64,000 nucleotides of DNA from an uncultured Clostridia bacterium (GTDB taxonomy: Bacteria; Bacillota; Clostridia; Christensenellales; Borkfalkiaceae), in the NCBI GenBank assembly GCA_944367565.1, contig CALVWR010000002.1:62001-126000 (forward strand). Direction: 5' to 3'. A program made the position numbers and the translations under genes. Under the pieces are notes generated by a model, which was given only the letters and a program-made list of their open reading frames with translations, ran no database searches and had not been told where the DNA came from. Positions 17,447 through 61,088 of this stretch are shown in pieces; within the stretch, counting starts at the first letter, position 1, and every line of letters begins with the position of its first letter.

Positions 17447-17475
17447 TTGACAAAGCCGGGAAAATCGGTTATAAT
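17447..17475 (+). promoter_or_regulatory. Perfect consensus sigma-A promoter
   Basis: TTGACA (17447-17452), 17-bp spacer, TATAAT (17470-17475). It is the best promoter in the window, yet no recognised gene follows. Confidence 0.9.
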
Positions 17476-17609
17476 ACAGGCGAACATAGGAAAACGGCAA
17501 AAGCCGTCAACGGGGAGGGCAGACCGATGAATCAGACCGAAACGGAGCGGGCAGGCTCAATCTCGTGAATTTTTCGGGTGCTTAAAACGTAAGGAAGAAT
17601 TCAGCCCGG

Positions 17610-17882
17610 TTGTTCGCTCGGGAAAGAAAAAAAGACGTTCGGAAAAACGGGCGGAAGAAAAATGCGGATATTTTTCGTTTCGTCTTTGCGCAGGGCGTAA
17701 TCCGCTATGGGATTGTGCGAAAAAGGTTTCGGACGCAGAAAAGCAGGACAGGATATGCGCCGCAGGGTAAAAGGGTCAATTCCGGAAAAGAGGAGCCGGA
17801 AAACGCAATCGATTTGCGGGAATACGTTGCGGGAGTACGCATACAGGTCGTTGCTTTTGACAGCCGCGGGAAGACCCCGTAA
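17610..17882 (+). CDS. Possible small basic protein inside the orphan transcript
   Basis: A 90-codon frame opening with TTG at 17610, 12 nt after AAGGAAG. No ATG exists in frame and a stop codon lies upstream at 17583. The product would be very basic (RKKDVRKNGRKK near the start) and ends in a more ordinary-looking segment with EYVAGVRIQVVAF. A second frame of 63 codons (17707-17898) overlaps it. Both may simply be open by chance within a structured RNA. I recognise no family. Confidence 0.2.
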   Translation: MFARERKKDVRKNGRKKNADIFRFVFAQGVIRYGIVRKRFRTQKSRTGYAPQGKRVNSGKEEPENAIDLREYVAGVRIQVVAFDSRGKTP

Positions 17883-17914
17883 GGCAGTGAAAAACTGAAT
17901 ACCAGCAGAAATTT

Positions 17915-17950
17915 AACGGCGGAAGTGTTTTACTTCCGCCGTTTGTATTT
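17915..17950 (+). terminator. Terminator of the orphan transcript
   Basis: 11-bp perfect stem (17915-17925 with 17933-17943), 7-nt loop, then TGTATTTT. Confidence 0.85.
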
Positions 17951-17975
17951 TAAATGTCGGTCAACAACGCGCTCC

Positions 17976-18077
17976 GAGCAGACAATCTGCATTAAAGCGG
18001 CAAATTTTCAGTTTGAGCAGACAATCCGCATTAAAGCGTCGGTCAGTCTTCTAGTCCGAGCAGATAGTCCGCAGATA
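17976..18077. repeat. Three-copy degenerate repeat matching the 3' end of the Xre gene
   Basis: GAGCAGACAATCYGCATTAAAGCG occurs at 17976-17999 and 18015-18038. A third related copy (18058-18077) is the antisense of the codons for the ADYLLGL end of the Xre protein. It looks like partial duplication of the gene's 3' end. Confidence 0.6.
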
Positions 18078-18261: not shown

Positions 18262-18339
18262 ATTATAACCAAAAAGTACGCTAATACTTGACAAGTACGT
18301 TAATAACGTATCATAATTATGCAATACGCTATTAGCGTG
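18262..18339. promoter_or_regulatory. Divergent promoters with three operators (module 1)
   Basis: Palindrome TACGTTAATAACGTA (18296-18310) is perfect and lies within the 18-bp spacer of the + promoter (TTGACA 18288-18293, CATAAT 18312-18317). Related copies are at 18325-18339 (TACGCTATTAGCGTG) and, weaker, at 18277-18291, over the -35 region of the minus promoter (-10 TATAAT at 18262-18267). Confidence 0.7.
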
Positions 18340-39702: not shown

Positions 39703-40187
39703 CAATTCGTCAGCAATGTGCTGAGATTTTCGGTGTTGACATATTGCTGTAAGAATTCTTTCAGCTTGTCGGGTTGTTTGATTCCGTTCAGCCAAAGATC
39801 TCTCTTGCCCACAAGGTCTACGTGCACGTTTCCGTAACCGAAGATTCTGCCGAAAAAAGTCTGACTTACGTCCACGCCGACTACGTTTGTCAGCAAAGTC
39901 TGGCGATCGTATTTGTTGAAAATACCGCCGTGTTCGGTGATCTTTGTCCCATCGATCGTCAACGTGTACGACTTGATGCTGAAAATCTTAAAAATAAGTA
40001 TGATCAGCGGGATAATAAGTATAAGTACGGAGAAGATGATATAGAGAATCAATCCGCCTCCCATTCTGCCTCCCATTGTTCCGAGTACGTATATGATCAG
40101 CAGGATAATAAGTACGGAGAAGATGATCAAGAGAATCAATCCGCCTCCCATTGTTCCGAGTACGCTTTTTTTTGCAGAAAACTTCAT
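39702..40187 (-). CDS. PH-domain (YdbT-like) membrane protein with duplicated helix
   Basis: 161 residues. Two hydrophobic stretches with near-identical sequence (VLGTMGGGLILLIIFSVLI and GGRMGGGLILYIIFSVLI) come from a tandem duplication. The C-terminal bacterial PH-like domain (SYTLTIDGTKITEHGGIFNKYDRQTLLTNVVGVDVSQ) follows. Such bPH2 proteins are membrane-associated with unknown ligand. GGAGG precedes ATG 40187. Divergent from an Xre gene (module 3), whose palindrome fills the promoter spacer. Confidence 0.82.
   Translation of the reverse strand: MKFSAKKSVLGTMGGGLILLIIFSVLIILLIIYVLGTMGGRMGGGLILYIIFSVLILIIPLIILIFKIFSIKSYTLTIDGTKITEHGGIFNKYDRQTLLTNVVGVDVSQTFFGRIFGYGNVHVDLVGKRDLWLNGIKQPDKLKEFLQQYVNTENLSTLLTN
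39999..40164 (-). repeat. Intragenic tandem duplication in the PH-domain gene
   Basis: Copy at 40092-40164 (73 bp) and a copy at 39999-40089 (91 bp) that differs mainly by in-frame insertions of 6 and 12 bp, the latter itself a duplication of CTGCCTCCCATT type. Confidence 0.85.
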
Positions 40188-40214
40188 CGATAAACCTCCA
40201 AATTATATACTATC

Positions 40215-40631: not shown

Positions 40632-40888
40632 AAAAGAGAGCAAACCTGCGAGACGGGGGAGTACCTTAAACAAATGCTTTCAGAGAGCTTCGGGGCGGTG
40701 GAACGGAGCAGCGGCGTTTAAGCGAATGGGCCGTTGAGGGCGGCGCGAAACGAAAAGGAGTAGCGTGCGACGTAACTCTGCGTTAAAGGGAGCCGTATGA
40801 TAGTACGGACTGAGGCGGAAATACGATCCGCGAATTTGGGTGGCAACACGGTAAAAAATCGTCCCAAACGGTTTTTACCGTGTTTTTT
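40632..40888 (+). promoter_or_regulatory. T-box riboswitch, tryptophan specifier
   Basis: Stem I elements CAGAGAGC and GGTGGAA (40681-40702) precede GAATGGG, with candidate specifier codon TGG at 40727-40729. The T-box GGGTGGCAACACGG is at 40838-40851; its TGGC would pair with a tRNA ending GCCA, as tRNA-Trp does. The terminator (ACACGGTAAAAA with 40872-40883, then T6) competes with the antiterminator. Uncharged tRNA-Trp should switch on the downstream TrpB-like gene. Confidence 0.85.
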
Positions 40889-55192: not shown

Positions 55193-55207
55193 TTAGAAAA
55201 ATTCAAT

Positions 55208-55326
55208 GTTCTTTGGGGTAAGGTGCAAGTCCTTTCCGATAGTGAAAGTCTATGAACGCGCAGTTTTTTGCGCGCCGACGGGGTGGAATTCCCCGACCGA
55301 CGGTATAGTCCGGATGAGAAAAGAAC
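55208..55326 (+). promoter_or_regulatory. FMN riboswitch (RFN element)
   Basis: P1 GTTCTTT (55208-55214) pairs with AAAGAAC (55320-55326). Conserved RFN blocks GGGGTAAGGTGCAAGTCC, CCGACGGGGTGGAATTCCCC and GACCGACGGTATAGTCCGGATG are present. With FMN bound it should favour the terminator at 55362-55396 and switch off ribU. Confidence 0.93.
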
Positions 55327-55361
55327 GATGATTCGTTGCAGATTGCCGCGGATAAAATCGC

Positions 55362-59978: not shown

Positions 59979-61088
59979 ATGCGTAAAAACGTTTTGGTGG
60001 TTTTCGGCGGACAGAGTACGGAACACGATATTTCCGTGCTGACGGGGGTGATGTGTCTGTCCGCGCTGCAAAACGAAAAGTATGCCGCATATCCGGTTTA
60101 CATCTCGAGGGAAGGAAGCTGGCATTGCGGCGAAGAACTCAAAGAACTTGAATTTTATTCCAGGAAAAGCCGGCTGCCGCAAAAGGTCTGTCTTTTGGGC
60201 GGGGACAATACCCTTTATAAGATCGGGAAAAACGGGAAATTAAAGCCGATGCTGAAAACGGCGTGCATCGTGAACTGCCTGCACGGCGCGCGGGGAGAAG
60301 ACGGCGCGCTTGCGGCGATCGCCGCGCTGTGCGGGATCGCGCTCGTCGGATCGGACATGACGGCGTCGTCCGCGGCATTCGACAAGATCGCGACAAAACA
60401 TATCCTGAAGGGGTTGGGCATCCGGACGTTGCCGTATGTCAGGCTGGAAACGGAGGACGATCTGGACGATGCGGAAAAGCGTTTCGGGTATCCGATGTTT
60501 ATCAAGCCGGCGCGGCAAGGTTCGTCCATCGGCGTGAACAAAGCGGAAAACCGCGCGGAAGCGGAACGGAGCTTCAACAAAGCGCGCAAATTCGATACGA
60601 AAGTGCTGGCGGAGAAATTTGCGGACGGCAAGCTGGAGATCAATGCGGCGGCGTATCGGGGAAAGGACGGAATCGTGGTATCGGAATGTGAAATGCCGGC
60701 GACGGAAAACCGTTTTCTGACCTTTGAAGATAAATACATAAAAGGAGAAAGGCTTTTCCCCGCACCCATTTCCGCGAAACTGTCCGACAAGATCCGTGCG
60801 CTTACGAAAAAAGTGTACGAGGGACTGGACTGTTCCGGCATCGTGCGGGTGGATTTTCTGATCAGCGGCGGAGAAGTCTATGTCAACGAGGTCAATACGG
60901 TACCCGGTTCGCTGGCGTATTATCTTTTCTGCGATACCTTCCGCGACTTTTCCGCCGTACTCGACGAACTGATCGAAGAGGCGTTGCGGCAATCCAACGC
61001 CAGGCAGACGCTGATCGGCAGGTTCGATTGCAATATTTGGGAAAACGCAGGCGTAAAGGGCGGTAAACGCTTTGACAAAAAGCGATAA
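59979..61088 (+). CDS. ddl: D-alanine--D-alanine ligase
   Basis: 369 residues from ATG 59979 (GCGGAGG). ATP-grasp ligase: [14 protein letters not shown] at the N-terminus, [37 protein letters not shown], omega-loop FEDKYIKGE, and Mg/ATP site [10 protein letters not shown]. Joins two D-Ala made by Alr for use by MurF, encoded directly upstream. The 3' end contains the promoter of the next gene. C-terminal 30 residues are a basic tail. Confidence 0.94.

Follow-up and report, generated by a model that had tools for sequence, protein, structure and literature searches.

What does a bacterium make from a stretch of DNA that is bounded by a perfect promoter and a strong terminator and has no recognisable gene between them? 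Such a unit lies in the window analysed here (the whole stretch of DNA under study, 64 kb), and an earlier note on this sequence had suggested that it might specify either a new structured RNA or a small basic protein. We have compared the unit with known RNA families, with its counterparts in the four sister species of its genus for which sequence was available (G001 to G004) and with related units elsewhere in the family.

A promoter-to-terminator unit without a protein gene

Both boundaries are as the earlier note had described them, a consensus sigma-70 promoter and a strong intrinsic hairpin enclosing ~460 nt, and the stable hairpin that it placed at the start of the unit is predicted as well. 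No protein gene is found within this interval, again as described, and the 90-codon frame that it contains has no Pfam or NCBIfam match. The parts of the unit are as follows.

17447..17475 (+): sigma-70 promoter, TTGACA-17-TATAAT, 12/12 match; both hexamers invariant in the five species of the genus
17482..17943 (+): predicted transcript, ~460 nt, its start site placed from the -10 box
17494..17507 (+): 5' hairpin ACGGC-AAAA-GCCGT, from fold prediction
17512..17518 (+): Shine-Dalgarno (SD) sequence GGGGAGG of the mini-ORF; GGAGG invariant in five species
17527..17568 (+): 13-codon mini-ORF, MNQTETERAGSIS and then a stop; all five species keep the start and the frame, four the position of the stop
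17544..17620 (+): helix P2 (17545-17553 with 17611-17619), with compensatory changes
17568..17601 (+): helix P3 (17568-17575 with 17594-17601), with compensatory changes
17575..17594 (+): conserved loop segment CGGGTGCTTAAAACGTAAGG, without variation in its first 17 nt across the five species
17621..17892 (+): variable-length body, structured and non-coding by fold and sequence comparison
17893..17901 (+): 3' motif AACTGAATA, directly before the terminator and also present in units of other genera
17915..17943 (+): intrinsic terminator hairpin, 13 pairs

The predicted transcript is ~460 nt in this species and reaches ~730 nt in sister species, with most of the variation falling in the mid-region, while the 5' part is kept throughout and the 3' end in most species. 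Since the 64-kb window holds two further promoters with 12/12 matches, at 61072 (+) and 40243 (-), each ahead of an ordinary ORF, a perfect promoter is not unique to the unit there. The gene upstream is URO-D/MtaA-like in this species, G001 and G002, while G003 and G004 have another gene there, which argues that the unit is free-standing and independent of any one neighbour. Downstream, the gene that follows in the window is encoded on the other strand, and the gene after that has its own promoter at 18288. Just past the terminator (17960-18060) there is a short direct repeat, GAGCAGACAATC(T/C)GCATTAAAGCG, with two copies within ~40 bases.

Comparison with known RNA classes

The earlier note could match the unit by eye to none of the standard housekeeping RNAs, and this holds up in a covariance search against the 4227 families of Rfam, in which neither the unit (at the gathering threshold or at E<=0.05) nor its sister units or related units from other genera matched any family. 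More permissive matches (ylbH, E 0.05; HOXA11-AS, E 0.1) are put down to chance, and no tRNA or tmRNA was detected in the unit. RNase P RNA (RF00010/RF00011) gave no match, and the same genome carries, at C34:3565-3906 (278 bits), an RNase P RNA of the standard type A; the variant GGAGGAAAGTCC in G001 resembles RNase P conserved region I, but a normal RNase P RNA is located elsewhere. The unit likewise did not match tmRNA (RF00023), which this genome encodes at C12:31921-32272, or 6S RNA (RF00013), which in G002 lies on contig C89, with the unit on C117. That G002 match is itself weak, and 6S RNA was not detected in this genome or in the other three of the four sister species, possibly because 6S is strongly diverged or because contigs are missing.

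The raiA motif RNA, or ModT (RF03072), found no match in the unit, and in our sample it occurs in 0/37 genomes of the family and in 10/24 other genomes of the order, a pattern that could reflect loss or replacement at the level of the family. OLE, ROOL, GOLLD, HEARO and the other large ncRNAs of Rfam matched neither the unit nor its sisters nor the related units. A CsrA sponge of the CsrB/RsmZ type is ruled out, because CsrA (PF02599) is present in 0/37 sampled family genomes, and the unit is not an ordinary cis-acting leader or attenuator, since no same-strand downstream gene is conserved beside it. Across the window as a whole, the only Rfam matches at gathering thresholds are a T-box leader (40639-40869) and an FMN riboswitch (55205-55329).

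The 5' part is conserved as a structured RNA within the genus

Among 61 genomes searched at the DNA level, the unit was recovered in 4/4 other available species of the genus. When a covariance model (R1) built on the first 160 nt of these units was run against 301 genomes of the family, it found the unit in all five species and nowhere else convincingly; its weak matches in other genera were chance, with the exception of one locus, L025, that led to the units of genus g9 described below. A 20-base pattern taken from the conserved loop, searched against 84,980 species genomes, had bacterial matches in the same four sister species only, in genomes recorded as uncultured Clostridia or Firmicutes, and its lone viral match is a phage coding region.

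The transcript is predicted to fold at -154.6 kcal/mol, compared with -135.1 in shuffles (z -3.3). The closing pair of the 5' hairpin is A-U in this unit and U-A in G003 and G004. Beyond it, helices P2 and P3 are nested, and both carry the compensatory changes that the earlier note had named as a check. Over the five species, 93.6% of P2/P3 cells are paired, a share that is 87.4% for shuffles and does not exceed 49% after sliding, and 10 cells are changed on both sides, compared with 3.5 in shuffles, a value that 0/500 shuffles attained. In P3, all cells (100%) are paired and three pairs are changed on both sides. With n=5 sequences this covariation is modest, giving P2 and P3 good rather than overwhelming support. 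On this comparison the first ~160 nt of the unit are conserved as RNA, and the suggestion of a new structured RNA is borne out by a unit that belongs to no known family, occurs in all five species of the genus and has compensatory base pairs.

A single mini-ORF is interleaved with the conserved helices

The 13-codon ORF with its own ribosome-binding site, which the earlier note had pointed out, is conserved together with its SD and ATG, and it starts at 17527, not at 17532; it runs through 13 codons to a TGA ending at 17568. The SD, its spacing and the ATG do not vary among the five species, and all of them (5/5) have an open frame, with the stop displaced only in G001, where the ORF extends to 19 codons; this is the single SD-bearing mini-ORF conserved in each unit of the genus. 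Relative to G002, 4/5 changes in the ORF are silent; in the other species they are mostly replacements. The codon pattern is thus mixed, and helix P2, which has its 5' strand within the mini-ORF at codons 7-9, accounts for part of it. P3 begins, in turn, with the final base of the stop codon itself.

The 90-codon frame at 17610, by contrast with the mini-ORF, is present but is not conserved as codons: tblastn against the sister species returns short matches that switch between reading frames. The proposal of a small basic protein is therefore unsupported. It is the 13-codon ORF that is the key feature of the unit, tying it to a family-wide class of mini-ORF RNAs.

Units with tandem mini-ORFs occur across the family

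The string GGAGGGCAGACCGATG is present in 6/398 genomes of the family. One of its matches outside the genus, in G278 (genus g9), is a promoter-to-terminator unit with three mini-ORFs, and a search seeded with this unit found similar units throughout g9. A model built from g9 alone, comprising the ORF2 hairpin and ORF3 (R2), has matches at E<=0.01 in 189/398 genomes of the family, of which 95 belong to g9, with the weakest of these matches only partly checked. Twenty R2 matches from g10, g7, g14, g5, g3 and g9 were read by eye, and 18 proved to be units of a shared plan, consisting of a promoter, a 5' hairpin, one to five mini-ORFs with SDs and a structured 3' part, nearly all of them with a motif resembling [AC]AACTGAAT and then a terminator at the 3' end. 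The remaining two, L111 and L112, are ordinary gene starts, as are the R2 matches in other families of the order. No Rfam family matches within the unit at any g9 locus, and RNAalifold yielded no useful consensus for the g9 3' domain, where the alignment is poor.

Across the family a unit carries one to six mini-ORFs (usually three in g9 and two in g14), each of 2-13 codons and each with its own SD. The g9 units are the most informative about how these ORFs are constrained. In 27/27 units ORF1 reaches its stop after 2-6 codons, while the two alternative frames read from its start have stops scattered from codon 0 to codon 88. ORF2 (~9-13 codons) is open in 47/47, compared with 6/47 for the +1 frame and 38/47 for the +2 frame; differences in its length are mostly multiples of three in the alignment, and its stop adjoins the next SD. 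Its start lies inside a covarying hairpin that presents the SD in its loop. ORF3 is exactly 10 codons long in 40/48, and its second codon is TAC in 47/48. Because TAC and TAT are used about equally in the window's ordinary genes, this bias implies that part of the constraint acts on the RNA. ORF3 at times starts with ACG instead of ATG in other genera. Judged from these alignments, the mini-ORFs of other genera are selected as ORFs.

Two g9 loci, L062 (G223) and L064 (G292), hold about five to six tandem mini-ORFs per unit, built from what looks like one duplicated module (an SD, then [AT]CC[AG]ATG, a few codons and a stop); in both, ACG replaces the ATG of ORF3 and the in-frame stop is retained. 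At six g9 loci (L039, L042, L043, L046, L047 and L036) the unit, read by eye, adjoins a putative spoIIE-like and/or Ger(x)C-like spore-germination gene, a neighbourhood that is not kept in the genus of the window.

In the literature on mini-ORFs, minigenes and structured RNAs that we searched, which mostly excludes subscription journals, no such class is described. We call the class new because neither Rfam nor these papers hold a free-standing RNA of this build, and the family units thus appear to form an undescribed RNA class with one to six mini-ORFs and AACTGAAT before the terminator.

The unit is probably a divergent member of this class

Sequence comparison makes it probable that the window's unit is a divergent, single-ORF member of the family-wide class. 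It has its own promoter, a 5' hairpin and an SD-mini-ORF of the form GGAGG-N-CC[AG]ATG, and in G004 the mini-ORF starts with ATGTACC, as in the units of other genera. The AACTGAAT motif before the terminator is exact in this species, G002 and G003, has one change in G004 and is absent in G001, and the first bases, AGGTGAACAWAGGAAAAC, are shared with the units of g14. In G004 the one R2 match within E<=0.01 has E=0.009 and coincides exactly with the unit; in the genome of the window, the R2 search revealed no other unit. Membership is proposed on these grounds, namely the order of parts, SD-CC[AG]ATG, the R2 match in G004, AACTGAATA, AGGTGAACAWAGGAAAAC and the lack of a second R2 unit. More than one mini-ORF, a usual though non-defining feature elsewhere, is absent in this genus, and its conserved loop was not found in units of other genera. 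Since R2 falls below threshold in 4/5 species of the genus, the proposed orthology with the units of other genera rests on short motifs and their order. The GCGCAGGG element after the mini-ORF was dropped as a link between genera because it is too weak.

Discussion

Taken as a whole, the evidence inclines us, by a modest measure, to the view that the unit is an independent, strongly promoted, structured and ribosome-engaging RNA, the genus-level, single-ORF form of the family class, which acts in trans as a translation-sensitive regulator. We infer its level of transcription, ribosome binding in vivo, its action in trans and a regulated target. In such a scheme, 30S subunits would load on the mini-ORF, and a ribosome translating its 13 codons would have to open helix P2, whose 5' strand lies within the ORF, before stopping or pausing where helix P3 begins. 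The traffic of ribosomes would then determine the fold that the RNA adopts, and the RNA would act in trans as a regulator sensitive to translation. Given the overlap of ORF and helices, both the fold and any trans activity would depend on translation.

The alternative that survives best is a purely structural trans-acting ncRNA, either a 6S- or ModT-like regulator or a scaffold, whose SD and 13-codon ORF in this genus are an accident or a relic. It would fit the concentration of conservation in the loop from 17575 and in helices P2 and P3 as well as the mixed codon changes of the mini-ORF, and an AUCGG-CCGAU pairing could account for the retention of the ATG. Against it stand an SD, spacing and ATG that are invariant, a frame open in all five species of the genus and the selected short ORFs in related units of other genera, and we consider it unlikely.

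Alternatively, the RNA might serve as a sink for initiation, titrating initiating ribosomes or producing short peptidyl-tRNAs in the manner of a minigene. Effects of minigenes on translation are documented (PMC8708949), and a consensus promoter combined with SDs, and ORFs of 2-6 codons that reach six in tandem in other genera (L062), would suit that role. Yet this genus has just one ORF, of 13 codons, and a simple sink needs neither a sequence-specific loop nor covarying helices, which makes the idea a poor prospect. It is more doubtful still that the unit is a gene for a functional micro-peptide, of 13 aa here and, elsewhere, of ~10 aa with the form MYxxxxxGAEK or ~10 aa ending in LKIK: the preserved frames and amino-acid patterns of ORF2 and ORF3 across g9 and g10 speak for a peptide, but the peptides differ among genera, ORF1 can be just Met-Gly-stop, and the near-invariant TAC at ORF3 codon 2 points to selection on the RNA. 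A leader or attenuator that controls a downstream gene by read-through would also combine a leader-peptide-like ORF with a terminator, but it deserves hardly any credence here, where the next gene is on the opposite strand, the following one has its own promoter and neighbours vary among species and genera.

Returning to the translation-sensitive regulator, we tentatively extend it to the family: free-standing RNAs of tandem minimal ORFs in which translating the 2-13 codons would constitute the regulation itself, so that the RNA works as a sensor of ribosome traffic and may replace raiA/ModT. This is conjecture, and we hold it with less conviction than the reading of the unit itself.

Dual-function sRNAs such as RNAIII, SgrS and SR1 are regulatory RNAs that also carry a small ORF. 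The units described here resemble them in that pairing, with a regulatory role that is putative, but differ in that their ORFs are of 2-13 codons, often several in tandem, and in that the reading frame in this genus overlaps conserved helices. In C. difficile, ModT is abundant and acts in trans (PMC11706538), and like raiA/ModT (RF03072) the unit is a free-standing structured RNA with a sigma-A promoter and non-conserved neighbours; it has no match to RF03072 in sequence or structure, and the raiA loci of neighbouring families, unlike these units, have no mini-ORFs. Minigenes (lambda bar; the axe-txe minigene, PMC8708949) are similar in having SD-driven ORFs of two or a few codons, but they sit within other genes or operons, whereas the RNAs here are independent, end in a terminator of their own and have no ORFs besides the mini-ORFs. 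Leader-peptide attenuators and uORF motifs (for example ilvB-II, PMC10272879) also interleave a short ORF with helices and a terminator, and differ in having a regulated gene downstream.

Standalone RNAs whose only ORFs are one to six selected frames of 2-13 codons fit no class that Rfam or the searched papers contain. Should ribosomes indeed move along them, these RNAs would offer a direct and genetically simple handle on how cells read their state of translation, in a large group of Clostridia, most of them uncultured, in which the raiA/ModT RNA found in related bacteria is missing.

Elsewhere in the window, at 40030-40190 (-), a small membrane-protein ORF has an imperfect internal duplication in its 5' part, with two copies of CGTACTCGGAACAATGGGAGGC.
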